Both the position numbers and the translations under genes were made by a program. From positions 1-38,221 of the forward strand of contig JAFIEG010000040.1 of NCBI GenBank assembly GCA_020832665.1: a stretch of DNA of 38,221 nucleotides. The letters run 5' to 3'. The stretch comes from Pararhodobacter sp. (GTDB lineage Bacteria; Pseudomonadota; Alphaproteobacteria; Rhodobacterales; Rhodobacteraceae). Shown here piece by piece: positions 4,694-17,571 of this stretch (within the stretch, counting starts at the first letter, position 1; each line of letters begins with the position of its first letter). The notes beneath the pieces were generated by a model, which was given only the letters and a program-made list of their open reading frames with translations, was not told where the DNA came from and did no database searches.

Positions 4694-6192
4694 CCCTGCC
4701 CGCCCGCTTTCTGCACGGCGAGTATCTCGCGCACCGCCGCCACCAGATCGGCGCGCTTCACCTCGCGCTGGGCGGGCTGTGCCTTCCATTCCTCGTGGCT
4801 GGCCTGTTCGGCGATCTGCGCGCCCAGCAGCAGATCCTTGATCTGCACCACGCCGCGCGCGGCCTCGTCCGCGCCTTCGATAATGGCGATGGGAGAGCCG
4901 CGTTTATCGGCATATTTCAACTGGTTGCCGAAATTCTTGGGATTGCCCAGATAGGCCTCGGCGCGGATGCCGTTGTTGCGCAACTCGCCCACCATGGCGA
5001 AGTAATCTGCCATGCGCGCGCGGTCCATCACCGTCACCACCACCGGGCCGGGCTCGGCGGCGCCCGCCTGCCCCTTCGCGGCCAGCGCCGCCAGCAGCCT
5101 GTCCACACCGATGGAAACCCCGGTCGCCGGAACCGCCTGCCCGGTGAAGCGCTTGACCAGATCATCATAGCGCCCGCCGCCGGCCACCGAGCCGAACTGG
5201 CGCTTGCGGCCCTTCTCATCAAGGATTTCGAAGGTCAGCTCGGCCTCATAGACCGGGCCAGTGTAATAGCCCAGCCCGCGAACCACCGAAGGGTCGATGA
5301 CGATGCGTTCAGGGCCGTAGCCTTGGGCATCGAGCAAAGAAGCGATTTCTTCAAGTTCATCAACGCCTTCCAGGCCGATCTTCGAGCCCTTGACGAGATC
5401 GCGCAAGGCCGCCGCCGTGGCCGCGCCGCTGTCGCGCCGCGCATTGGTGAAAGCCAGCACGATATCGGCCTGCGCCTGCCCCAGCCCCGCGCCCTTGGTG
5501 AAATCGCCGCTTTCATCCTTGCGCCCCGCACCCAGCAGCGCGCGCACGCCGTCCTCGCCCAGCCGGTCGAGCTTGTCGATGGCGCGCAGCACGATGCCGC
5601 GTTCCTCGGCGAAGCGGTCGGGGTCTGTCGGGTCGAGGATGCCGGCAGCCTCCATCACGCCATTCAAGACCTTGCGGTTGTTGACCCGCACCAGGCAGGC
5701 ATCGCCCAGCCCCAGCACGGCGAAGACATCAACCAGCATGGCGCAGATCTCGGCATCAGCGGCCACCGAAGCCGCCCCCACCGTATCGGCATCGCATTGA
5801 TAGAACTGGCGAAACCGCCCCGGCCCGGGCTTTTCGTTGCGCCAGACCGGGCCCATCGCAAAGCGCCGGTAGGGGCTGGGCAGATCGTTGCGATATTGCG
5901 CCGCCACGCGGGCCAGCGGCGCGGTCAGATCGTAGCGCAGCGCCAGCCAGTCGCCCTCTTCCTGCCAGGCGAAGACGCCGGCATTGGGCCGGTCGACATC
6001 GGGCAGATACTTGCCCAGCGCGTCGAGCGTTTCCACGGCGCTGGTTTCCAGCGGCTCGAAGCCATAGGCGTGATAGACCTCGCCGATCTGCGCCAGCATT
6101 CGCTGGCGCGCGCGCAGCTCGGCGCCGAAATAGTCGCGAAACCCCTTGGGCGTTTCGGCGCGGGGGCGGCGGGGGGCTTTGGGTTTGGCCAT
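4690..6192 (-). CDS. hisS: Histidyl-tRNA synthetase
   Basis: HisS charges tRNA-His with histidine. The 500-residue product is a class II synthetase with motif 2 in [20 protein letters not shown] (114-133), the histidine-specific stretch [14 protein letters not shown], motif 3-type sequence [12 protein letters not shown], and a C-terminal anticodon-binding domain (from about residue 400). It is longer than the roughly 420-430 residues of E. coli-type enzymes. Its motif 2 end, FYQCDAD, is closer to the eukaryotic and divergent alphaproteobacterial type as I know them. The ATG at 6192 begins a basic, Pro-rich leader. hisS is first in hisS-hisZ-hisG and divergent from slyX, with 75 bases between them. 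Confidence 0.96.
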
Positions 6193-6267
6193 GTGCTTGA
6201 TGCTCGTCTTGCGCTCGCGTGTGGTCTAGCCCATGGCTTGGCAGGGGGCAAGCAGCGGAGGTCAGGC

Positions 6268-6486
6268 ATGAGCAAGGATAGCGATGAACGGCTGCAGGCG
6301 AGCGAGGAGCGCATCGCGCATCTGACGCGCACAGTAGACGATCTGTCGGACCTGCTGCGCGAACAGGGGCGGCAGATCGAACGGTTGCAGGCGCAGCTGG
6401 CGCATCTGATCGAACGCGAGGCCGAGCGCGAGGCCGAATCCGGCGCCTCGGTCACGCTGGGCGACGAGAAGCCGCCGCACTGGTAG
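6268..6486 (+). CDS. slyX: SlyX family small coiled-coil protein
   Basis: The 72-residue protein is almost entirely helical: ERLQASEERIAHLTRTVDDL is followed by heptad-rich sequence to about residue 53. It ends in PPHW, matching the PPHY/W tail typical of SlyX. The molecular function of SlyX is not established. A strong GGAGG at 6257-6261 sets the ATG at 6268, although the same frame stays open far upstream across the hisS antisense strand. It is divergent from hisS and lies 92 bases before purB, possibly in the same transcript. Confidence 0.85.
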   Translation: MSKDSDERLQASEERIAHLTRTVDDLSDLLREQGRQIERLQAQLAHLIEREAEREAESGASVTLGDEKPPHW

Positions 6487-6494
6487 GCCCCCCA

Positions 6495-6523
6495 GCCCTT
6501 GCCAAGGCCCCCGGCCCTTGCCA
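6495..6523 (+). repeat. Short direct repeat between slyX and purB
   Basis: GCCCTTGCCA occurs at 6495-6504 and again at 6514-6523. The first copy also forms the small palindrome CCTTGCCAAGG. No U-tract follows. I see no clear role; it may be a weak terminator or chance GC-rich repetition. Confidence 0.3.
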
Positions 6524-6578
6524 GCCCACTACCCCCGGTCTATCAGGCGCGCAAACCCCGACAGCCGAGGAAAAAGCC

Positions 6579-7886
6579 ATGATCCCCCGCTATTCGCGCC
6601 CCGAGATGGTGGCCATCTGGTCGCCCGAGACGAAGTTTCGCATCTGGTTCGAGATCGAGGCGCATGCCTGCGATGCGATGGCCGATCTGGGCGTGATCCC
6701 ACGCGCGAATGCGCAGGCGCTGTGGAAGGCAAGGGATACCGAATTCGATGTCGCGCGCATCGACGAGATCGAGGCGGTGACGAAGCACGATGTCATCGCC
6801 TTTCTTACCCATCTGGCCGAAATCGTGGGCAGCGACGAGGCGCGCTTCGTGCATCAGGGCATGACCTCATCGGATGTGCTGGACACGACGCTGAACATCC
6901 AGCTGGTGCGCGCGTCTGATCTTCTGCTGGCGGGGATGGACCGGCTGCTGGCGGCGCTGAAGGCGCGCGCGCTTGAGCACAAGGATACGCTGCGCATCGG
7001 CCGCTCGCATGGTATCCATGCCGAGCCAACCACCATGGGGCTGACCTTCGCGCGGTTCTACGCCGAGATGGCGCGCGGGCGCAAACGACTGGAAGCGGCG
7101 CGCGAGGAAGTGCGCACGGGGGCAATTTCGGGCGCGGTGGGGACATTTGCCAATATCGACCCGGCTGTCGAGGCGCATGTCTGCGAAATGCTCGGCCTGA
7201 TCCCCGAGCCGATTTCCACCCAGGTCATTCCGCGCGACCGGCACGCGATGTTCTTTGCCACGCTGGGGGTGATAGCCTCGTCGATCGAGAATATCGCGGT
7301 GGAGATCCGCCACATGCAGCGCACCGAGGTGCTGGAGGGCGAGGAATACTTTTCTGCCGGGCAAAAGGGCTCGTCGGCGATGCCGCACAAGCGCAACCCG
7401 GTGCTGAGCGAGAACCTGACCGGGCTGGCGCGGCTGGTGCGCTGCATGGTGGTGCCGGCGATGGAAAATGTGGCGCTGTGGCATGAGCGCGATATCTCGC
7501 ACAGCTCGGTCGAGCGCATGATCGGCCCCGATGCCACGGTGACGCTTGATTTCGCGCTGCACCGGCTGGCCGGCGTGATCGAGAAGCTGGTGGTCTACCC
7601 CGAGGCGATGCTGGCCAACATGAACCGCTTTCGCGGGCTGGTGATGAGCCAGCGCGTGCTGCTGGCGCTGACCCAGGCCGGCGTGAGCCGCGAAGATGCC
7701 TACCGGCTGGTGCAGCGAAACGCGATGAAGGTCTGGGAAGAGGGCAAGGATTTCAAGACCGAGCTGCTCGGTGACGAAGAGGTGCGTGCGGCGCTCTCGG
7801 CCAAAGAGATCGAAGAAAAGTTCGATCTGGCCTATCACACAAGGCATGTGGACACGATCTTCGCGCGGGTGTTCGGCGCGGGCTGA
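6579..7886 (+). CDS. purB: Adenylosuccinate lyase
   Basis: PurB releases fumarate twice in purine synthesis, from SAICAR to give AICAR and from adenylosuccinate to give AMP. The 435-residue product has the fumarase/aspartase superfamily signature SSAMPHKRNP at 265-274, the substrate loop region HQGMTSSDVLDT near residue 90, and GRSHGIHAEPTT around 145, which holds a catalytic His. The ATG at 6579 follows CGAGGA. The length is typical of the short PurB type found in alphaproteobacteria. Its TGA abuts the stop of the converging unknown gene. Confidence 0.97.
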   Translation: MIPRYSRPEMVAIWSPETKFRIWFEIEAHACDAMADLGVIPRANAQALWKARDTEFDVARIDEIEAVTKHDVIAFLTHLAEIVGSDEARFVHQGMTSSDVLDTTLNIQLVRASDLLLAGMDRLLAALKARALEHKDTLRIGRSHGIHAEPTTMGLTFARFYAEMARGRKRLEAAREEVRTGAISGAVGTFANIDPAVEAHVCEMLGLIPEPISTQVIPRDRHAMFFATLGVIASSIENIAVEIRHMQRTEVLEGEEYFSAGQKGSSAMPHKRNPVLSENLTGLARLVRCMVVPAMENVALWHERDISHSSVERMIGPDATVTLDFALHRLAGVIEKLVVYPEAMLANMNRFRGLVMSQRVLLALTQAGVSREDAYRLVQRNAMKVWEEGKDFKTELLGDEEVRAALSAKEIEEKFDLAYHTRHVDTIFARVFGAG

Positions 7887-8267
7887 TCAGCCTTCGTCCA
7901 CCTCGATCCGGTCGGCGATTTCGGGGGCAATGAGGCCCGCATGCAGCGCCAGAAGCACGATCCTGGCATCAAGCGAATCGCCCTCATTGATGGCGCCCTC
8001 CAGCCGCTGCGCGGCGCGCTCAGCGGCATCGGCGCCGTTGCTGGTGCCGAATTGCTCATGCCCGAGCATGCAATAGCAAAACAGCTGCGCGGCCTCGCCA
8101 TAGGCGGCATCCCTGCCCTTTTCCGCTGCCGCCTGCTTGTGCAGCCGCACCAGCGTCAGCTTCACGCCATCGGGCACCAGAAGCGGGTGCACCCCGGCGG
8201 CGCGCAGCGCGCCATCGAGCGCATTCAGCGCCGCCGACTGGCCGAACAGATCGAAGAAGCGCAACAT
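7887..8267 (-). CDS. Conserved hypothetical protein, 126 residues
   Basis: I do not recognise a named family. The protein starts MLRFFDLFGQ from ATG 8267; a TTG two codons earlier is less likely. It looks soluble and mostly helical, with a central Cys pair (QLFCYCMLGHEQF) and an acidic C-terminus EIADRIEVDEG. Codon use matches its neighbours, and the reading frame is intact with no signal peptide. Its stop directly touches the purB stop. It is probably transcribed with, or downstream of, the MarR gene on the same strand, 60 bases away. Confidence 0.75.
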   Translation of the reverse strand: MLRFFDLFGQSAALNALDGALRAAGVHPLLVPDGVKLTLVRLHKQAAAEKGRDAAYGEAAQLFCYCMLGHEQFGTSNGADAAERAAQRLEGAINEGDSLDARIVLLALHAGLIAPEIADRIEVDEG

Positions 8268-8327
8268 GGCCAAAGCGTAGCAGGTCTCATCGCCGGTTCC
8301 ATCTCAAATCGGCGCTGGCGCGCGGGT

Positions 8328-8837
8328 TCAGGGCGCATCGACTGCCTTGTCATCGCGCTCGCCCACCGCGAGCGGGCGCAGTTCCTCGCCGCCGGGAAAG
8401 GGCGTGGTGTCCTCGGCATCGAAAAGCGAGGCCAGCCTTTCCGAGACGGCCAGCAGCATGGCCTGCTCCCACGCCGGCAAGGTCTCGAAGCGCCGCGTGA
8501 AGCGCTCATGCAGCGGGTCCGGGGTCTGGTCGATGAGGACGCGCCCTGCATCGGTCAGAATCACCCAGATTGCCCGCCGGTCTGAATGACGCCGCTCGCG
8601 CCGGACAAGCCCGCGCGCCTCCAGCCGGTCGATCTGCAACGAGATCGTCGCCTGGCCCACCCCCAGTGTGCGGGCGATGTCGCGCGGCATCTCCTGGCCG
8701 TTGCGCGACAGCGTGTGCAGCACCAGAAGCTGCGCCTGCGTCAGACTCGACGCCTTGGCCATCGCGCGGGCATTGGTTTCCAGCGCGTGCACGATGCGGC
8801 GCAGCGCAATCAGCGTTTCGGACGAACGATCTGCCAT
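8328..8837 (-). CDS. ectR: MarR-family regulator, probable EctR
   Basis: The 169-residue protein is a winged-helix regulator. The recognition region is PRDIARTLGVGQATISLQID (51-70), followed by the wing RRERRHSDRRAIWVILTDAG (79-98), with flanking helices for dimerisation. It is divergent from ectA. MarR-type EctR proteins sit in the same position in other ectoine producers and repress ectABC until salt rises. The family is clear from sequence; the EctR role is inferred from context. ATG 8837 gives the normal N-terminus (ADRSSETLIALRRIV); an in-frame extension reaches further upstream but has no support. Confidence 0.85.
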   Translation of the reverse strand: MADRSSETLIALRRIVHALETNARAMAKASSLTQAQLLVLHTLSRNGQEMPRDIARTLGVGQATISLQIDRLEARGLVRRERRHSDRRAIWVILTDAGRVLIDQTPDPLHERFTRRFETLPAWEQAMLLAVSERLASLFDAEDTTPFPGGEELRPLAVGERDDKAVDAP

Positions 8838-8929
8838 GAAGCCGTCACCAGCGGGAACTCCGGGGCCACCACGATGCACAAGCCATGCGCCCTGCACAAG
8901 CCCGCCAACTCCGCGACTGTGAAGCATTA

Positions 8930-8944
8930 ATTTGATAGACAAAT
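8930..8944. promoter_or_regulatory. Candidate regulator-binding dyad ATTTG-N5-CAAAT
   Basis: A perfect inverted repeat, ATTTG ATAGA CAAAT, overlaps the likely -10 box of ectR. Its size suits the core of a MarR-type operator, so autorepression by the EctR-like protein is plausible. This is inference from position and symmetry only. Confidence 0.4.
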
Positions 8945-8970
8945 CATAAATACTGAAGATTTTGATGTAA
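8943..8970 (-). promoter_or_regulatory. Candidate ectR promoter
   Basis: On the minus strand, TTACAT (8970-8965) and TATGAT (8948-8943) are separated by 16 bases, resembling sigma-70 -35 and -10 boxes. The start would fall around 8936, about 100 bases before the ectR ATG. The -35 is imperfect. Confidence 0.4.
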
Positions 8971-9023
8971 CTGCCCGCGAATCGTGCAGCGAAATAACTT
9001 CTAATAAGTTGATTTTATTTATT

Positions 9024-9052
9024 TTGTCACAGGTTGGCAGAAAAATTATATT
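9024..9052 (+). promoter_or_regulatory. Sigma-70-type promoter for ectABC-ask
   Basis: TTGTCA (9024-9029) and TATATT (9047-9052) are spaced by exactly 17 bases in an AT-rich stretch. The predicted start near 9059 leaves a leader of roughly 57 bases before the ectA ATG. This is the best promoter match I found in the window. Confidence 0.6.
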
Positions 9053-9072
9053 TTGGGTTGCAAAACATTTCC

Positions 9073-9090
9073 GCAGAGAACATATTCTGC
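9073..9090. promoter_or_regulatory. Dyad in the ectA leader
   Basis: GCAGA and TCTGC flank eight bases (GAACATAT), 25 bases before the ectA start. It could be a downstream operator or a weak leader hairpin. No known site is matched. Confidence 0.3.
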
Positions 9091-9115
9091 ACAACGAAGC
9101 AACTTGCACAGGCAC

Positions 9116-9673
9116 ATGACCCATCATTCGCTGACACTGCACAACCGGACCGAAACCGACCAGACCAGAACCGGCCTGCACATGCGCAAGCCCACCAAGG
9201 AAGACGGGGCGGCCGTGTGGCAACTGGTGGCAGATTGCCCGCCGCTGGACCGCAATTCGATGTACATGAATGTCGTCCAGTGCGATCATTTCGCCGATAC
9301 CTGCATCCTCGTCGAGCGCGACGGGCAGGTCGTGGGCTGGATCTCGGGCCATATCCGCCCCGAGGCGCCCGACACGCTGTTCATCTGGCAGGTGGCGGTG
9401 CACGAATCGGCGCGCGGGCTGGGGCTGGGCAAGCGCATGCTCTCGGCGCTGGTGGCGCGGCCCGAATGCGCAGGCGTGCGGCAGATGGAAACCACCATCA
9501 CCCGTTCCAACAAGGCCTCATGGGCGCTGTTTCAAAGCTTTGCCCAGGCCATGGGCGGCGATCTGAGCGATGCGCCGCATTACGAGCGCGACGCGCATCT
9601 TGGCGGCAAGCACGCGACCGAATACCTGGTCTCGATCTCGCTGCCCCGCAAGCGGCTGCGCGCCGCCGCCTGA
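9116..9673 (+). CDS. ectA: Diaminobutyrate acetyltransferase
   Basis: EctA acetylates L-2,4-diaminobutyrate with acetyl-CoA to give N-gamma-acetyldiaminobutyrate, the second dedicated step of ectoine synthesis. The 185-residue GNAT-fold protein has the acetyl-CoA-binding motif RGLGLGK (100-106) after IWQVAVHESA, and the family stretch VWQLVADCPPLDRNS. ATG 9116 follows CACAGG and gives a length within the family range. A TTG at 9053 would extend the frame through the promoter region, and ATG 9182 has no ribosome site. It is first in ectA-ectB-ectC-ask. Confidence 0.95.
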   Translation: MTHHSLTLHNRTETDQTRTGLHMRKPTKEDGAAVWQLVADCPPLDRNSMYMNVVQCDHFADTCILVERDGQVVGWISGHIRPEAPDTLFIWQVAVHESARGLGLGKRMLSALVARPECAGVRQMETTITRSNKASWALFQSFAQAMGGDLSDAPHYERDAHLGGKHATEYLVSISLPRKRLRAAA

Positions 9674-9703
9674 GCGCACGCCCCTTCCCTTGCAGATACC
9701 GCG

Positions 9704-9722
9704 CCCGGCACACGCTGCCGGG
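9704..9722 (+). other. Hairpin between ectA and ectB
   Basis: CCCGGC and GCCGGG flank seven bases in the 84-base ectA-ectB gap. There is no U-tract, so it is more likely an mRNA-stability or attenuating hairpin than a strong terminator. Confidence 0.35.
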
Positions 9723-9757
9723 CCGTTGCCCACTCATCAACCGAAAGGCTGAAAGCC

Positions 9758-11038
9758 ATGAAAACCGGTTCTTCGAAAGACATCTATGCACGCCGCGAAA
9801 GCGAAGCGCGCAGCTATTGCCGCTCGTTCCCCGTGTCCTTCACCGCGGCGCGGAACGCCACGCTGAGCGATGCCGAGGGGCGGCGCTATATTGACTTCCT
9901 CGCCGGCTGCTCGTCGCTCAATTACGGCCATAACGACCCCGACATGAAGGCGGCGCTGATCGAATACATCTCGCGCGACGGCCTGGCGCACGGACTCGAC
10001 ATGCACACCGATGCCAAGGCGGCATTCCTGGAAAGCTTCGAGAAGCTGATCCTGGCACCGCGCGACATGGATCACAAAGTCATGTTCACCGGCCCCACCG
10101 GCACCAACGCCGTCGAGGCGGCGATGAAGCTGGCGCGCAAGACCACCGGGCGCGACACGATCATCGCCTTCACCAATGGCTTTCACGGCATGACGCTGGG
10201 TGCGCTGGCAGCCACGGGCAATGCCGGCAAGCGCGCAGGGGCAGGCCGGGCGCTGACAGGCGTGGTTTCCATGCCCTATGAAGGCGCCGTCGAGGGTGTC
10301 GATTCGCTGGCACTGCTGAAGGCGATGCTCGAAAACCCCTCAAGCGGTATCGATGCGCCGGCTGCCTTCCTCATCGAATCGGTGCAGGGCGAAGGCGGGC
10401 TGAACGCGGCCAGTGGCGAATTCCTGCGCGGGTTGCAGGAGCTTGCCCGCACGCATGGCGCGCTTCTGATCGTCGATGACATCCAGGCCGGGATCGGCCG
10501 CACCGGGCCCTTCTTCAGCTTCGAGGGGATGGGCATCAAGCCTGACCTGATTCCGCTGGCGAAATCGCTTTCCGGCATGGGGCTGCCCTTCGCAGCGCTG
10601 CTCATCCGCCCCGATCTCGATGTCTGGAAGCCGGCCGAACATAACGGCACCTTCCGCGGCAATGGCCATGCCTTTGTCACCGCCCGCGCCGCGATCGAGA
10701 AGTTCTGGGCCGATGACGGCTTTCAGCGCCAGATCGAGGCCAAGGCGGCCTATCTGAGCGAACGCCTGACCGACATTGCAGCCGGCGTGCCCGGCGCGGT
10801 GCTCAAGGGCCGCGGCATGATGCAGGGCATTGATCTGGGCAGCGGTGAACTGGCGGCCTCGGTCTGCGCGGCGTGTTTCGACAACGGCTTGATCATCGAG
10901 ACCTCGGGCGAGCATGACCAGGTGGTCAAGGTGCTGGCACCGTTGACCACCCCGCAGGAACAACTGGCCGAGGGGCTGGATATTCTGCATGCGGCGGTGC
11001 AATCCTGTCGCGCACAAACCCAGATGGCAGCGGAGTGA
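9758..11038 (+). CDS. ectB: Diaminobutyrate-2-oxoglutarate transaminase
   Basis: EctB converts aspartate semialdehyde to L-2,4-diaminobutyrate using glutamate as amino donor, the first dedicated step of ectoine synthesis. The 426-residue class III PLP aminotransferase shows the cofactor-binding [16 protein letters not shown] (112-127), [13 protein letters not shown], the pyridine-nitrogen Asp region [13 protein letters not shown] (238-250) and the Schiff-base Lys269 in [11 protein letters not shown]. Its length and N-terminus ([20 protein letters not shown]) are typical of EctB. ATG 9758 follows GAAAGGCTGAAAG. ectC starts four bases after its stop. Confidence 0.97.
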
Positions 11039-11042
11039 GCCC

Positions 11043-11429
11043 ATGATTGTTCGCGACTTTCACCAGGAAAAGAAAACCGACCGGCGCGTGGCCGACAAGC
11101 AATGGGAATCGGTGCGCCTGCTTCTGGCCGATGACGGGATGGGATTTTCCTTTCACATCACCACCATCGCCGCCGGCAGCGAGCACACTTTCCATTACAA
11201 GAACCATTTCGAGAGCGTCTATTGCATCTCGGGCGAGGGCACGATCGAGGATCTGGCCACCGGCGAGGTTCATGAACTGAGCCCGGGCGTGATGTATGCG
11301 CTTGACCAGCACGACAAGCACACGCTGCGCTGCCGCACCGAAATGGTGTTCGCCTGCTGCTTCAACCCGCCGATCACCGGCAAGGAAGTGCATCAGGCCG
11401 ATGGTTCCTATTCGCTGGAAACCTCCTGA
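11043..11429 (+). CDS. ectC: Ectoine synthase
   Basis: EctC cyclises N-gamma-acetyldiaminobutyrate to ectoine. The 128-residue single-domain cupin begins [16 protein letters not shown] and has the metal and substrate pocket regions [19 protein letters not shown] and [12 protein letters not shown]. The Tyr, His and Glu of these stretches match known EctC metal-ligand positions as I recall them. The length matches the family. It starts four bases after ectB, so translation is probably coupled. No ectD follows it. Confidence 0.97.
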
Positions 11430-11454
11430 ACACTGCAAACCAACCGAAAAGGGC

Positions 11455-11480
11455 GGGCAGGCGTGAAAAGCGACCTGCCC
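11455..11480 (+). other. Hairpin immediately upstream of ask
   Basis: GGGCAGG and CCTGCCC form a 7-bp stem around 12 bases, ending 11 bases before the ask ATG. The stem covers the place where a ribosome site would lie, and no Shine-Dalgarno sequence is visible. It could lower ask translation relative to ectABC. Confidence 0.45.
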
Positions 11481-11491
11481 CGACACACACA

Positions 11492-12955
11492 ATGTCCCAT
11501 ACCGTGGAAAAGATCGGCGGCACCTGCATGAGCAGGGCGCGCGAACTGGTGGACACGCTGTTCATCGGCAGGCGCGGCAAGGCCGAAATCTATAACCGGG
11601 TTTTCGTGGTCTCGGCATTCGCCGGAATCACCAACATGCTGCTTGAGCACAAGAAAACCGGCGAACCGGGCGTTTTCGCGCAATTCGCCAATGATGATTC
11701 CGGCGCCGGCTGGCTGGCCGGGCTTGACCGCACGGTGCAGGCGATGGGCGAGCTCAACGCGCAGATTCTCAGCGATTCGGGCGACCGCGAGCGCGCCGAT
11801 GCCTTTGTGCGCGACCGTATCGAGGGCGCGCGCGCCTGCCTGCATGATCTGCACCGGCTTGGCTCTTACGGGCATTTTCGCATCGATCAGCAGTTGCAGA
11901 CGGTGCGCGAGCTGCTTTCGGGGATGGGCGAGGCGCATTCGGCCTTCGTGCTGGCGCTCTTGCTGCAGCGCCACGGCGTGAATGCGCGTTTCGTCGATCT
12001 GTCGGGCTGGCGCGACGAGGCCAACCCGGCCCTGCAAGAGCGGCTGCAACAGGCGATGGCCGATATCGACCTGAGCGCCGAGTTGCCCATCGTCACCGGC
12101 TATGCCCATTGCACCGAGGGGCTGATGGGCGAATACGACCGGGGCTATTCCGAGGTGGTCTTTGCCCATCTCGCCGCGCTCACCGGTGCTGCCGAGGCCA
12201 TCATCCACAAGGAATTTCACCTGTCCTCGGCCGACCCGAAAATCGTGGGGGTGGAAAACACCGTCAAGATCGGGCGCACCAGCTACGATGTCGCCGATCA
12301 GCTTTCGAATATGGGGATGGAGGCGATCCACCCCCATGCCGCGCGCGTGCTGCGTCAGGCCGATGTGCCGCTGCGCGTCAAGCACGCCTTCGAGCCCGAA
12401 GACCCCGGCACGCTGATCGGCCCCGAAGGCGGCGCGGCGGGCCGGGTCGAGATGGTCACCGGCTCGCCGGTGCATGCCTTTGTGGTGCACGAGCCTGACA
12501 TGGTGGGCGTCAAGGGCTATGACGCGTGCATCCTGCAGGCGCTGACCCGCCACAAGCTGCGCATCGTGTCGAAGCAATCGAATGCCAACACGATCACGCA
12601 CTTCCTTGATGGCTCGCTCAAGGCGATCCGGCGCGCCGAGCGCGAGGTGCTGGCCGCCTATCCTGGCGCCAGTATCGAGGTGCGCCCGCTGGCGATGATT
12701 TCGGTCATCGGCTCCGATCTCAGCGATCTGGCGGTACTCTCGCGCGGGCTGGTCGCGCTGGCCGAGGGTGGCGTGCGCCCGCATGCGGCGCAGCAGGGGC
12801 TGCGGCGTGTCGATGTGCAGTTCGTGGTTGAACGCAACACCATGAATGACGCCGTCATGCTGCTGCACCGCCAGCTGGTCGAGGGCTCTTGCGCACAAGA
12901 GCCGCAAGCAGCCCCCGAGAAGCTGAGCGCACAACCCCGCGCCCGGGCGGCCTGA
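11492..12955 (+). CDS. ask: Ectoine-specific aspartate kinase
   Basis: Aspartate kinase phosphorylates aspartate, and this specialised form raises the supply of aspartate semialdehyde for EctB. The 487-residue protein begins MSHTVEKIGGTCMSRARELV and contains YNRVFVVSAFAGITNMLLEHKK, the Ask_Ect hallmark. GYSEVVFAHLA, EAIIHKEFHLSSADP and C-terminal ACT-like segments (from about 330) follow. In Ask_Ect the first motif is normally KIGGTS; here the codon is TGC, giving Cys. It is the last gene of the operon, 62 bases after ectC. A palindrome shared with the nuo operon lies downstream. Confidence 0.93.
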   Translation: MSHTVEKIGGTCMSRARELVDTLFIGRRGKAEIYNRVFVVSAFAGITNMLLEHKKTGEPGVFAQFANDDSGAGWLAGLDRTVQAMGELNAQILSDSGDRERADAFVRDRIEGARACLHDLHRLGSYGHFRIDQQLQTVRELLSGMGEAHSAFVLALLLQRHGVNARFVDLSGWRDEANPALQERLQQAMADIDLSAELPIVTGYAHCTEGLMGEYDRGYSEVVFAHLAALTGAAEAIIHKEFHLSSADPKIVGVENTVKIGRTSYDVADQLSNMGMEAIHPHAARVLRQADVPLRVKHAFEPEDPGTLIGPEGGAAGRVEMVTGSPVHAFVVHEPDMVGVKGYDACILQALTRHKLRIVSKQSNANTITHFLDGSLKAIRRAEREVLAAYPGASIEVRPLAMISVIGSDLSDLAVLSRGLVALAEGGVRPHAAQQGLRRVDVQFVVERNTMNDAVMLLHRQLVEGSCAQEPQAAPEKLSAQPRARAA

Positions 12956-13047: not shown

Positions 13048-14001
13048 TCAGCCCCGCCTTGCCCGGCGCCGGCGGATCAACTCTGCCCGGCCCGGTTGCG
13101 CGGGCGGGCCTGCCCCGGCGAACAGATGCGCGGCAAGCCGGGCCGGGCTTGGATACCGGAAGATATCGACGATCGATACCGCAACGCCCAGCCGCTGCCC
13201 CAGCAGGCGCTGCAACTCCAGCGCCAGCTTCGAATTGCCGCCCGAATCGAAGAAACCGGCATCGCCGCCGACGGCGGGCAGGCCCAGCACTTCGGCAAAG
13301 ACCGCGCGCACCTCGTCTGCCGATGCCGCGTCGCCACCGCAAGGCGCTGGCGCCACTGCCGCGCCCATGTTCCCGCCCATTATCTCGGCAGGCACGCCAA
13401 GCGCGGTGCACCCGGCCGGCACATCGCCAACCACCGCCGAACAGGCGCTTACCGTGGCATCTTCGCCCACCGCCAGATCGGGCAGCACCGCGGCATTGGT
13501 GCCGATATAGGCGCGCGCGCCCACCCGCACCCGCGCATTGACCACCGCCCCAGGCGCCAGCGTCGCGCCTGCACCCAGCGAAGCCCCGTGCCCGAGCACC
13601 GCGCGGGTAAAAACCACCGCATGATCGCCCAGGCTGGACAGCGCCGAGATCACGCATCCTTCATAAAGGGTTACCGCCCTGCCCAGCGTGGCACCGCGTA
13701 GATTGACGGTGGGGTGGATCAGGCTGGCCAGCGAAATGCCGAAACCCTCGATCTTCGCGCGCGCCCCGTCGCGGCCCCTTGCGGTGCGCGCCACCAGATT
13801 CACTGCCTCGTCGCCGGGCTCATGGCCGGCCAGCGCCGCGAAGGGCCCCACCACGCGCACGCCCAGAATCTCCTGCCCGTGCAGGGAAGGCTCGTCATCA
13901 AGCAGCACGATGCGCTGCCAGCGCCCGGCGGCCTCGTTCACCTCCAGCGCCAGGCGCACCCCCTCGGGGTTGCCCGCCGCGCACAGATAGAGCGTGCTCA
14001 T
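13048..14001 (-). CDS. NeuD/PglD-like acyltransferase fused to a carrier-protein domain
   Basis: The 317-residue protein has three parts. Residues 1-60 resemble the nucleotide-sugar-binding N-terminal domain of NeuD/PglD transferases. Residues 95-208 are hexapeptide repeats of a left-handed beta helix, with His138 in LGHGASLG at the position of the catalytic His of PglD. After an Ala/Gly-rich linker, residues 226-295 form an acyl/peptidyl carrier domain with GFFDSGGNSK (249-258). Ser257 is the expected phosphopantetheine site, and DIFRYPSPARLAAHL is the usual carrier tail. Family members normally use acyl-CoA and lack a carrier. The natural reading is transfer of a carrier-bound acyl group to an amino sugar; substrate and product are unknown. 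ATG 14001 overlaps the radical SAM stop as ATGA. Confidence 0.85.
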   Translation of the reverse strand: MSTLYLCAAGNPEGVRLALEVNEAAGRWQRIVLLDDEPSLHGQEILGVRVVGPFAALAGHEPGDEAVNLVARTARGRDGARAKIEGFGISLASLIHPTVNLRGATLGRAVTLYEGCVISALSSLGDHAVVFTRAVLGHGASLGAGATLAPGAVVNARVRVGARAYIGTNAAVLPDLAVGEDATVSACSAVVGDVPAGCTALGVPAEIMGGNMGAAVAPAPCGGDAASADEVRAVFAEVLGLPAVGGDAGFFDSGGNSKLALELQRLLGQRLGVAVSIVDIFRYPSPARLAAHLFAGAGPPAQPGRAELIRRRRARRG

Positions 14002-14954
14002 CGCGAAGAACCCAGGCTGTCGCGATGCACCGCCTGCCCGGGGCGGAGCTTCAGCGAGGCGCCGGTCTTCCAGTCGGTGCAATTGTCGCAGCGCGCGGGC
14101 AACTCGCCAAAGCGGCGCTCAAGGTGCAGCTGGCGATAGCTTGCCAGCCTGCCCCACAGATCGACCAGGCTGTCATCCCAGGCATTGCCCGCGCTTTCCT
14201 CGCCCTCGGTGTCGCCGGGGCAGCGCGGCACCCTGCCATCCCAGAACATGTGCATCATGGTGATCGCCCAGGGGCAGGGAATGCGCTCTTCTTCGGCGAT
14301 CTCGATGGCGGTTTCGAACTTCCCGCCCCAGCTCAGCTGCCGGCGCAGCTTGACCGTGGCGCCAAGCCCGAGCCAGTAATCGCGATAGCGCTCGAACTCG
14401 GTGATATTGTCATCCATCTCGATGAACTGCACCATGATCTCGGGCCCGCTTTCGCGCCGCGCGCGTTCTTCCAGCAGATAGCCGGCATTGGCATAGACGC
14501 GGTCACGATCGCCAAGAACGCGATATTTCTCATAGGTTTCCCTGGTGAAGCCGTCGATCCCGATGACGATATTGGAAAGGCAGGTATCAAGCAGGCCCCG
14601 CGCCACCTCGCGACTCAGCCGCATGCCGTTGGTGTTGAGATTGAGCGAGCGCAGCCCGACGCTTTCGCCGTATTTCAGCATCTCGATCAGCCGCTCTGGC
14701 ATCAGGAGCGGCTCGCCGCAAAAGGAAAACCAGATATTGGTCGCCGGCGCGATGGCCGCAATTTCATCGGCGCATTTGCGCCAAAGCGGCATCGGCAGGT
14801 TTCCCTTTGGCCGCTGCATCCGGTCATGATGGCACATCGAGCAGTTGAGATCGCAATCGGCACAAAGTTCAACGGCGAATATCTTGGGGAAACTCGGGTT
14901 CTTCAGGCCAGAGGCGGTACGCTCCAGCTCGGCCTTGTGGTTGGCGTGTTTCAT
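13998..14954 (-). CDS. Radical SAM protein with SPASM-type C-terminus
   Basis: The 318-residue enzyme has the radical SAM cluster motif C34-x3-C38-x2-C41 (CDLNCSMC), the SAM-binding FCGEPLL (78-84), and LNTNGMRLS. C227, C245, C289 and C292 (CPWA, RCPGD, CDNC) follow as SPASM-like ligands for an auxiliary iron-sulfur cluster, with DGRVPRCPGD being typical. Such enzymes use 5'-deoxyadenosyl chemistry on peptides, sugars or small molecules; the substrate cannot be read here. It overlaps the carrier-fused acyltransferase by ATGA, so both probably act in one pathway. It is divergent from the epimerase across an AT-rich region. No small precursor peptide gene is evident next to it. Confidence 0.88.
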   Translation of the reverse strand: MKHANHKAELERTASGLKNPSFPKIFAVELCADCDLNCSMCHHDRMQRPKGNLPMPLWRKCADEIAAIAPATNIWFSFCGEPLLMPERLIEMLKYGESVGLRSLNLNTNGMRLSREVARGLLDTCLSNIVIGIDGFTRETYEKYRVLGDRDRVYANAGYLLEERARRESGPEIMVQFIEMDDNITEFERYRDYWLGLGATVKLRRQLSWGGKFETAIEIAEEERIPCPWAITMMHMFWDGRVPRCPGDTEGEESAGNAWDDSLVDLWGRLASYRQLHLERRFGELPARCDNCTDWKTGASLKLRPGQAVHRDSLGSSR

Positions 14955-15303: not shown

Positions 15304-15307
15304 TTGA
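15281..15307 (+). CDS. Possible 8-codon leader frame upstream of the epimerase
   Basis: ATG 15281, preceded by AGGAAAG at 15271-15277, encodes MVIGGMAA. It stops at TGA 15305-15307, which overlaps the TTG start of the epimerase (TTGA). It could couple translation of the TTG-start gene. It could equally be chance, since GGGGGA at 15290-15295 is itself an acceptable ribosome site for the TTG. Confidence 0.25.
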   Translation: MVIGGMAA

Positions 15308-16227
15308 GGCGGGAAAGAATTCTTGTGACCGGGTCAGACGGTCTGATCGGCACGGCGCTTTACGCCGAGCTGCAGGCGCGCGGCCACGCCTTGCGCCGCT
15401 TCGACATCGCCGACAGGCAAGCCGGCCCTGGCGATATTCTGGCGCCGGCTGCGCTGGCAGCGGCGATGAAGGGCTGTTCGGGCGTCATTCATCTGGCGGC
15501 GGTCTCGCGCGTGGTCTGGGGCGAGCGCGACCCGAGAAAATGTCTGGAAACCAATGTCACCGGCACGCGCAACGTCATCGAGGGCGTGCAAGCGCGCGCA
15601 CCGCAACCCTGGCTGATCTTCGCCAGCAGCCGCGAGGTGTACGGCCAGAGCGCCATGCTGCCGGTGAGCGAGCGCAGCCCGCTGCGCCCGATGAACCATT
15701 ATGCGCGCTCGAAAGTTGCGGGCGAGCGCGACGTGATGAAAGCAAGCGATGACGGCATCCGCGCCGCGATCCTGCGCCTTTCCACGGTTTACGGATCGAC
15801 CGGCGATCATGCAGACCGGCTGGTTCCGGCCTTTTGCCGCGCGGCGGTCGGCGGCCTGCCGCTTCGGGTCGAGGGGGCGCGGAACAGCGTCGATATCACC
15901 CATGTCGCCGATGTCGCGGCCGTAATCGCCAATGTCGCCGAGGCGCTGGCGGCGGGTCAGAGCTTCAGGCCGATGCATCTGACCACGGGGCGGGCAACAT
16001 CCCTTGCCGGGCTGGCGCGGCTGGTGGTGCGGCTGGCACGAAGCGAAAGCAGGATCGTCACGGCGCTGCCGCGCGATTACGATGTCTCGAACTTCAACGG
16101 CGACCCGGGATTGGCACAGGCGCAAATCGGCTGGCGCCCGCGCGTTTCGCTCGAAGCCGGATTGGCGGAACTGATCGCCCGGTTCCGGCAAGAATGCGGG
16201 CAATCCGCCAAGCGCCTCACGGGATAG
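15304..16227 (+). CDS. NAD-dependent epimerase/dehydratase (extended SDR)
   Basis: The 307-residue protein is an extended short-chain dehydrogenase of the nucleotide-sugar epimerase type. It has the NAD-binding motif TGSDGLIG (9-16), VIHLAAVSRV, FASSREVYG with Ser109 or Ser110, and the catalytic pair Tyr133 and Lys137 in MNHYARSK. VDITHVADVA and a C-terminal substrate domain follow. The exact sugar nucleotide cannot be told. TTG 15304 is the only start in frame near the beginning of homology; upstream ATGs are in another frame. Its divergence from the radical SAM and carrier-acyltransferase genes suggests a joint role in making a modified sugar, which is inference. Confidence 0.85.
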   Translation: MRRERILVTGSDGLIGTALYAELQARGHALRRFDIADRQAGPGDILAPAALAAAMKGCSGVIHLAAVSRVVWGERDPRKCLETNVTGTRNVIEGVQARAPQPWLIFASSREVYGQSAMLPVSERSPLRPMNHYARSKVAGERDVMKASDDGIRAAILRLSTVYGSTGDHADRLVPAFCRAAVGGLPLRVEGARNSVDITHVADVAAVIANVAEALAAGQSFRPMHLTTGRATSLAGLARLVVRLARSESRIVTALPRDYDVSNFNGDPGLAQAQIGWRPRVSLEAGLAELIARFRQECGQSAKRLTG

Positions 16228-16374: not shown

Positions 16375-17475
16375 TCAACCGGTATCGGCGTTCGCGGAAA
16401 GCGGATCATCCTGCGCCATCGCGGGCGCCGGCATCGGTGCCGGCGGCAGCGCCGGGCCGGCAAGCATTGGCCCCATATGCGCCCCTTCCGGCATCGCGGT
16501 CAGCCGCAGCGCGCGCATGCCCCGATACTGGCCAAGCCGCGCCAGCGCCAGCAGGCGGCAATCGCCCGATTCCAGGCGCACCTCCTCGAGCTGCCCGATC
16601 GGCAGGGTCAGGCACCTGTCCGGCACCAGCTGCAGCGCCTCTTCAAGCGGCAGGCTGACCCGGCCCAGAACGGCGCGAAGCTCGGTCGGCACCGCCATGA
16701 CCATGGCTTCGACCCGCCGTTGCCATTCTTGCTGTTGCGCCGGCGGCGCACCGCCGCCGACACCGGCGCCTGTGTCATTGCCCGCCACGTCCGCGGCGGC
16801 GGCCGGCACGGGCAGCCCCAGCAGCAGCCGCCCGCTGCGCTGCTCGCGGCCAAGGCTGATCGTGATATCCAGCTGCTCCAGCGTGAACGCCCCCTCTTCC
16901 AGCAGCACCGACAGCAGCCTTGCATCGGCAACGAAGCGCCCGCGCTGCCAGGGTGCCAGGGCGCTGGGGCCGGCGGCGCCGCTTCCCTGCCTTTCGAACT
17001 CCTGCTGGCGCAGCAGGAGCAGCCCGTCGACGAAATCGCACAGCAGCGCGTCATCGGTGGGCGTGGCGCGCCGCGGCGGGCGCGCGCTGGCCGAAAGCCG
17101 GCCGGTAGTGAGGATCTCGACCAGCGCCATGAAGGCCCCGCGATCGAGCGCCAGCAGGCCCGCTGCCGCCTCGTCCGGCGCATCGTCTTCCCCGGCGGCG
17201 CCGGCGGGCGCCAGCAGGGTGAGAAACCCCTCGGGCTCGACCAGTTCCAGCAGCTCGGCCTGCCCGACTTCGCGCGCGGCACTAAGCCTGGCGCTGGCGT
17301 GCAGCCCGCCGCCAATGGCCGCGCAGGCACGCGCCAGCGCGCGCTCGAAAGGGTGGGCGCGCGGGTTGCTCGCCCCGGCTTCGCCCTCGCCCTCGGCGGG
17401 CGGTTGCACCCGTTTCCTGGCCAGCTTGCGCCGCAACACCGGCTGCGCCTGCGTCAACCTTTCCGATCGCTCCAT
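16375..17475 (-). CDS. FliM/FliN-type SpoA-domain protein
   Basis: The 366-residue protein has a basic N-terminus (MERSERLTQAQPVLRRKLAR), a long helical and Ala-rich middle, and a C-terminal SpoA domain of about 65 residues (262-326). That domain contains SLPLEEALQLVPDRCLTLPI, ESGDCRLLALARLG and RGMRALRLT. SpoA domains build the FliM/FliN part of the flagellar switch and the type III secretion C-ring. The N-terminal FliM-type CheY-binding motif is not recognisable, and the C-terminal 40 residues are Ala/Pro-rich. No flagellar gene is nearby. The longer TTG start at 17568 is less likely than ATG 17475. Confidence 0.7.
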   Translation of the reverse strand: MERSERLTQAQPVLRRKLARKRVQPPAEGEGEAGASNPRAHPFERALARACAAIGGGLHASARLSAAREVGQAELLELVEPEGFLTLLAPAGAAGEDDAPDEAAAGLLALDRGAFMALVEILTTGRLSASARPPRRATPTDDALLCDFVDGLLLLRQQEFERQGSGAAGPSALAPWQRGRFVADARLLSVLLEEGAFTLEQLDITISLGREQRSGRLLLGLPVPAAAADVAGNDTGAGVGGGAPPAQQQEWQRRVEAMVMAVPTELRAVLGRVSLPLEEALQLVPDRCLTLPIGQLEEVRLESGDCRLLALARLGQYRGMRALRLTAMPEGAHMGPMLAGPALPPAPMPAPAMAQDDPLSANADTG

Positions 17476-17513
17476 GCCCCGCCACTCCGACTTCCGGGGC
17501 CAGACTCGCAGGG

Positions 17514-17531
17514 AAGGGTAAAGGAACCCTT
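17514..17531 (-). other. Hairpin between rnj and the FliM-like gene
   Basis: AAGGGT and ACCCTT flank six bases in the 96-base gap after the rnj stop. It is short, with no U-tract. It may weakly separate the two genes. Confidence 0.3.
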
Positions 17532-17571
17532 GCCGGCGCTCCCGAAGCAGTCCTTGCCGGCCTGCCAAGCC

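Follow-up and report, generated by a model that had tools for sequence, protein, structure and literature searches.

On the minus strand of the window (the whole 38,221 nt stretch of DNA analysed here), a single gene encodes a protein of 317 aa in which a NeuD/PglD-like acyltransferase is joined to a complete carrier domain. The fusion is best read as a one-chain version of the split pair of PglD homologue and acyl carrier protein (ACP) predicted in Flavobacterium, probably for use on an amino sugar. Carrier-fed members of the NeuD/PglD family have been proposed before; the new element is the fusion, as feeding of the WfpG/WfpD type is already predicted (PMC6519341). The gene, the parts of its product and the two neighbouring genes that accompany it are as follows.

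13048..14001, minus strand: NeuD/PglD-like acyltransferase and carrier domain fusion, 317 aa, ATG start
13750..14001, minus strand: N-terminal nucleotide-binding-like part (residues 1-84), with an AAGNP loop instead of GxGGH, Asp35-Asp36 kept
13375..13749, minus strand: left-handed beta-helix (residues 85-209), with His138 at 13588-13590 and GVPAE as residues 202-206
13324..13374, minus strand: linker (residues 210-226), of variable length, 23% identical over 15 pairs
13123..13317, minus strand: carrier (PP-binding) domain (residues 229-293), with Ser257 at 13231-13233
13051..13116, minus strand: basic C-terminal tail (residues 296-317)
13998..14954, minus strand: radical SAM protein with a SPASM/twitch-like C-terminus, the gene end overlapping the fusion start by 4 nt
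15304..16227, plus strand: divergent SDR of the NDP-sugar epimerase/dehydratase/reductase type

A sequence-only reading of this DNA had described the acyltransferase and its carrier, with a phosphopantetheine-site Ser257 in FFDSGGNSK and His138 at the PglD catalytic position, and these assignments are borne out. The Pfam PP-binding model PF00550 matches residues 229-293 along its full length (profile positions 1-67 of 67; E 1.4e-14, 54.5 bits against a cut-off of 20.8), so that the domain search suggested for the 317 residues gives a significant carrier match in the region proposed (226-295), and Hexapep matches at 1.1e-11. FFDSGGNSK is present in the minus-strand translation of 13048-14001, a strand that the reading had left unmentioned, together with the conserved radical SAM and SDR neighbours. 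The match to NCBIfam TIGR03570 (NeuD_NnaD; E 1.9e-36, 125.6 bits) is below the curated cut-off of 160.8. The nearest solved relatives are perosamine N-acetyltransferase (4ea7, presumably PerB), the pilin-glycosylation protein 4m98 and VioB. The first of these matches residues 17-210 (7.6e-20), its HD histidine aligning with His138, and the hexapeptide beta-helix can be aligned along PerB/PglD. In an AlphaFold2 model built from four sequences (mean pLDDT 47.2) the carrier is the confident part and the helix scores below 50. The fusion itself is the single PP-binding match on its contig.

The fusion is kept in six distinct genomes: the window's own (G000), G003, G102, G352, G372 and G379. An assembly join or a chance frame is thereby ruled out. 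The five other copies are 64-72% identical to that of the window. A search of 40 relatives gave one full-length copy (G003) beyond the window's own genome, and six loci came from a peptide-pattern scan of a species-genome collection. Three are full-length: L026 from an Aliiroseovarius MAG, L027 from a Rhodobacteraceae MAG and L028 from Roseobacter sp. SK209-2-6, which are the same genomes as G102, G003 and G372, respectively. In a survey of the family (394 genomes, 1e-20) seven genomes matched, five of them, the window's included, across both domains; in the class (385 genomes, 1e-25) four matched, with the carrier present only in the window's own genome. The fusion is thus rare (5/394 family genomes and 1/385 class genomes). 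No relatives of it were found among 47 matching stretches of viral contigs, and none of the six matches in 72,556 plasmid records covered 80% of the query. No other NeuD-carrier fusion was seen; a check of another 17 genomes in which long NeuD frames occur placed every PP-binding match outside the listed NeuD frame. Nor was the fusion found described in the literature searched, which included few subscription papers.

Ser257, the GGxS attachment residue of the carrier, and His138 are invariant in all six fused copies, as are Asp35 and Asp36. Identities over the 15 pairs of copies are 77% for the helix, 55% for the carrier, 40% for the tail and 23% for the linker, which drifts. Differences at codon positions 1, 2 and 3 (0.17, 0.11 and 0.54 in the helix; 0.34, 0.26 and 0.57 in the carrier, over the same pairs) are mostly at third positions, and this is consistent with purifying selection on both domains.

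Alignment of NeuD-like frames (56 rows, of which eight without a readable His138 or Ala205 were dropped) allowed six fused copies to be compared with 42 unfused ones, a small set that includes at least two serine-acetyltransferase-like rows. Position 139, following the catalytic-position His, is Gly in 6/6 fused copies and Asp or Glu in 40/42 unfused rows; the two exceptions, L017 and L031, look to be of the serine-acetyltransferase type. Position 206, following GxPA, is Glu in every fused copy and Lys or Arg in 39 of the 42 unfused rows, the others having Glu (L132), Val (L037) or Ala (L146). The loop at residues 8-12 reads AAGNP in all fused copies and is of the GxGGH type in 31/42 unfused rows; six are unreadable here, and none of the 36 readable loops is AAGNP. 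In the two nearest unfused relatives the loop is GANNP (L037) or GAKNP (L045), and so the NP loop may predate the fusion.

A structural study provides a context for these residues. When CoA binds to Pcryo_0637 or PglD, a conserved proline switches its trans form for cis, with re-ordering of the coil that follows; uracil is bound by an Asp, the Asp pair (Asp35/36 of PglD) being common to both enzymes (PMC8040287). Judged by motif, this proline would correspond to the GxPA turn of the fusion, placing residue 206 in the CoA-re-ordered coil, where it may touch CoA. With the Asp pair retained, the fusion may still bind a nucleotide sugar through its base, and the other changes suggest a different sugar and an altered donor side. 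Glu206, Gly139 and AAGNP would fit a donor borne on a carrier instead of CoA, without proving one. Gly139 might reflect a different chemistry; loss of the acid beside His138 was dropped as proof of inactivity, since VioB (7txp) also reads HG.

The best putative split analogue found here lies at L147 (G1046:C1, ~4748-12783), where a row of genes on one strand encodes a NeuD-type hexapeptide protein, an SDR, a Rieske oxygenase, a 76-aa ACP and two KAS III proteins, near flagellin and DegT genes. The NeuD-type protein may use the separate ACP, and the locus could encode an acyl-sugar pathway for flagellin glycosylation. Its NeuD-type protein reads GHD and GNPAK. A change from Lys to Glu is therefore no general mark of a carrier donor and Glu206 is not claimed as proof of one; the argument from this residue is weakened, while the split analogue, whose genes are confirmed by Pfam, strengthens the case for NeuD-type enzymes working with carriers.

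PerB, PglD, 4m98 and VioB are CoA-dependent. They resemble the fusion in fold, as judged from sequence, and in the catalytic-position His, but lack a carrier and have an HD dyad (HG in VioB); in PerB, 4m98 and VioB the residue after GxPA is Lys, where fused copies have Glu. Carriers replace CoA as donors for LpxA and LpxD, acyl-ACP-dependent beta-helix acyltransferases to which the fusion shows sequence matches; these differ in using a separate fatty-acid ACP, in having different N-terminal parts and in not being known as fusions. In butirosin biosynthesis, an aminoacyl group borne by the ACP BtrI is transferred to an aminoglycoside amine by the acyltransferase BtrH, which is not known to be a hexapeptide protein, and the pathway includes a radical SAM enzyme, BtrN. 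The likeness to the fusion and its neighbours lies in an ACP-borne aminoacyl group passed to an amine and in the presence of a radical SAM enzyme, only a weak match to BtrN being seen here; the butirosin pathway makes an antibiotic and has no known fusion.

The sequence-only reading had stated that known NeuD and PglD enzymes take acetyl-CoA. This fits the characterized ones seen here, including the CoA-dependent Pcryo_0637 and PglD (PMC8040287), whose Asp pair at the nucleotide site is also present in the fusion. It does not extend to the O-polysaccharide locus of Flavobacterium psychrophilum, where the PglD homologue WfpG is predicted to be fed by a dedicated ACP, WfpD, with a UDP-amino sugar as acceptor (PMC6519341). 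As in the window protein, a PglD-type acyltransferase has a dedicated carrier, but WfpG and WfpD are not joined in one chain, and their O-antigen cluster also contains ketosynthase and reductase genes. The fusion is a single chain with radical SAM and SDR neighbours, outside any glycan cluster seen, and acyl-building ketosynthase or reductase neighbours of the WfpG/WfpD type were absent from the 30 window ORFs scanned.

The radical SAM and SDR neighbours are conserved. A survey of genomes for the fusion and its surroundings, as the sequence-only reading had proposed, places the radical SAM gene beside the fusion in 6/6 loci and the divergent SDR gene in all four loci that extend far enough on that side, L026 and L027 ending before it. 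The 4-nt overlap between the radical SAM gene and the fusion is constant in the six loci when the start is taken as the Met homologous to that of the window; longer frames are also open in L027 and L028, and the radical SAM frame of L027, close to the start of its contig, is incomplete. The five full-length radical SAM copies share CxxxCxxC (residues 34, 38 and 41) and invariant Cys 227, 245, 289 and 292, and the solved matches include, weakly, the sugar or cyclitol enzymes BlsE and BtrN. The SDRs of L028 and L044 are of the same kind as that of the window and 60-61% identical to it. In L043 the divergent gene (7662-8648) encodes an SDR of another kind, which shares 28% identity with that of the window and has Epimerase and GDP_Man_Dehyd Pfam matches, hinting at a changed sugar.

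Of the two nearest unfused relatives of the fusion, L073 has a DegT sugar aminotransferase gene directly before it and L071 has one ~6 kb away. A survey of the phylum with a radical SAM profile (398 genomes, 1e-30) gave 13 matches including the window's, and the loci of six of the other twelve were read (G810, G797, G817, G892, G886 and G874). DegT or asparagine-synthase genes are present in five of these six: DegT in G797, G892 and G886 by Pfam and in G817 by eye, and asparagine synthase in G797, G817 and G810; G892 also has a hexapeptide protein. In the sixth, G874, no DegT, asparagine synthase or hexapeptide gene was seen by eye. The G810 locus (L065; G810:C68, 466-6011) is a short operon-like row of an asparagine-synthase gene in alternation with two related radical SAM genes, preceded by what by eye is a nucleotidyltransferase-like gene.

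No adenylation or ketosynthase gene was found in a Pfam scan of 30 window ORFs (part of the window genes, and some shadow frames), and among the AA-adenylation matches listed for the genome none is on the window's contig, C108, in agreement with the sequence-only reading. Its conclusion that the loading partner is missing holds for the window but not for the genome, which has two PF01648 (phosphopantetheinyl-transferase-type) genes that could arm the carrier, as well as 42 matches to the AA-adenylation model that include an NRPS. A frame of ~2,150 aa with a PP-binding match is present in all six fusion genomes, and is a PKS by Pfam in G000 and by reading in four others. A frame of ~1,530 aa with an AA-adenylation match above the cut-off is present in five of the six, G003 showing only a partial NRPS frame beside the long frame. 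The NRPS of G000 comprises a formyltransferase, an adenylation domain with a nested luciferase-like monooxygenase domain, and a carrier, and adjoins GT2 and phosphopantetheinyl transferase genes. The set of PKS, GT2-like gene and NRPS recurs in L112 (G000:C36, 6512-19330) and L113-L116, with domains taken from L112 only; a phosphopantetheinyl transferase gene follows it in L112, L113 and L114 (Pfam), as does a similar short gene in L115, and a further gene following in L113 matches Wzz weakly, below the cut-off.

The fusion is probably a carrier-fed acyltransferase with an armed Ser257, an outside loader and an arm that replaces CoA, the acceptor most likely being an amino sugar. A phosphopantetheinyl transferase would arm Ser257, and an enzyme encoded elsewhere would load an acyl or aminoacyl group onto the arm. 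Through the flexible linker, the arm could then swing into the inter-subunit cleft of a presumed beta-helix trimer, in place of CoA, and His138 would aid transfer of the group to its acceptor, most likely an amine on a nucleotide-linked sugar. Making or tailoring of that sugar may involve the SDR and the radical SAM enzyme, in whichever order. The sequence-only reading had likewise taken the built-in carrier to imply transfer of its load in cis to a sugar amine; delivery by the carrier, which may be in cis, is the most economical reading, and a sugar amine is a candidate acceptor: Asp35/Asp36 are kept, but the Gly-rich loop is replaced.

Carrier feeding is favoured by the significance of both domains, the invariance of Ser257 and His138, the codon-position pattern of helix and carrier, Glu206 in place of Lys/Arg, the DegT genes of near relatives, the DegT or asparagine-synthase genes in five of the six loci read for distant radical SAM relatives, and the precedents of WfpG/WfpD (predicted) and the split set of L147. 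Against it stand the Lys of L147, Gly139 and AAGNP; moreover, in the fusion loci that were read, neither an aminotransferase nor a loading enzyme was found next to the fusion. The helix might instead still use acetyl-CoA or another acyl-CoA, the carrier being a tether, a docking module or a late addition without a part in feeding the site. The clear match to a CoA-dependent perosamine N-acetyltransferase, the faster evolution of the carrier than of the helix (55 vs 77% identity) and the Lys kept by the NeuD protein beside a separate ACP, which allows Glu206 another meaning, would all suit this; it is nonetheless unlikely, given that carrier and Ser257 are kept in every fused copy and that Glu206 separates these from nearly all unfused ones. 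Loss of acyltransferase function, leaving the helix as a scaffold or binding protein, could be argued from Gly139, which departs from 40/42 unfused rows, and from AAGNP, which none of the 36 readable unfused rows has, two of them reading GAKNP and GANNP. With His138 in 6/6 copies and a helix that is 77% identical over 15 pairs, this is very doubtful. Alternatively, the carrier could be a workbench that holds a substrate for the radical SAM enzyme or the SDR, the helix releasing or transferring the finished group. The constant 4-nt overlap with the radical SAM gene and the presence of both genes in all six loci point in that direction, but five of the six loci read for distant radical SAM relatives look like glycan loci and the solved matches of the enzyme include, weakly, sugar or cyclitol enzymes; such a role is improbable.

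One special case of carrier feeding, and compatible with it, would have the NRPS encoded with the PKS and GT2 gene as the loader; this is a weak candidate and rather unlikely. The NRPS is found in 5/5 sampled fusion genomes and in 142/394 genomes of the family (hypergeometric 0.0058, a post hoc value, the association having been noticed before it was tested, that ignores phylogeny and uses a profile built from those five genomes). It is also the only AA-adenylation match above the curated cut-off in G000, G102, G372 and G379; G352 has one more, and the partial frame of G003 counts against the association. The basic C-terminal tail of the NRPS resembles that of the window protein (score reached by 2/5000 shuffles) and of L027 (15/5000), but the other four fused tails do not beat shuffles (1216-1294/5000), and a shared docking tail is accordingly not claimed. 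Fused and NRPS carriers are 28-42% identical, compared with 47% between the window's carrier and one from Kribbella; the NRPS of the same genome is not clearly preferred, and the NRPS carrier is not supported as direct ancestor of the fused one. Nor are the two genes linked, being ~50 kb apart on one contig in G379 and on separate contigs elsewhere.

If carrier feeding is correct, the fusion is a single-chain acyltransferase with its donor arm inside the enzyme, a compact tool for attaching unusual acyl or aminoacyl groups to amino sugars, and it may reveal what alters in a beta-helix enzyme once CoA gives way to a tethered donor. The case would further illustrate how a tiny cassette, without a surrounding glycan cluster, could alter a surface sugar. 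Across five genera the fusion (64-72% identity) and the radical SAM protein (77-85%) are more alike than the NRPSs of the same genomes (49-57%), which suggests horizontal spread of the cassette; its flanks differ between loci. In the most far-reaching version, a mobile three-gene cassette would take a formylated or oxidized aminoacyl (or extended) group from the widespread NRPS/PKS line onto its carrier, and the helix would place it on an amino sugar tailored by the radical SAM enzyme, rewriting the surface glycan of the host with a nonribosomal product. This version is a long shot and weakly supported.

In the window, the cassette is flanked by ectABC-aspartokinase on one side and, on the other, by a FliM/N-like gene, beyond which lie RNase J, coaX, birA and nuo genes. 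The ectoine operon (8328-12955) has a MarR-type regulator divergent from ectA, ectB, ectC and the aspartate kinase gene, the last of these running towards the fusion gene in convergent orientation. A minus-strand gene (16375-17568) located between the cassette and RNase J encodes a protein of 397 aa with a C-terminal FliM/FliN match (8e-08). In Roseobacter sp. SK209-2-6 (L028), identical inverted copies of 1,226 nt (5175-6400 and 11141-12366) flank the SDR, radical SAM and fusion cassette; each encodes an integrase-core protein, an arrangement like that of a composite transposon.
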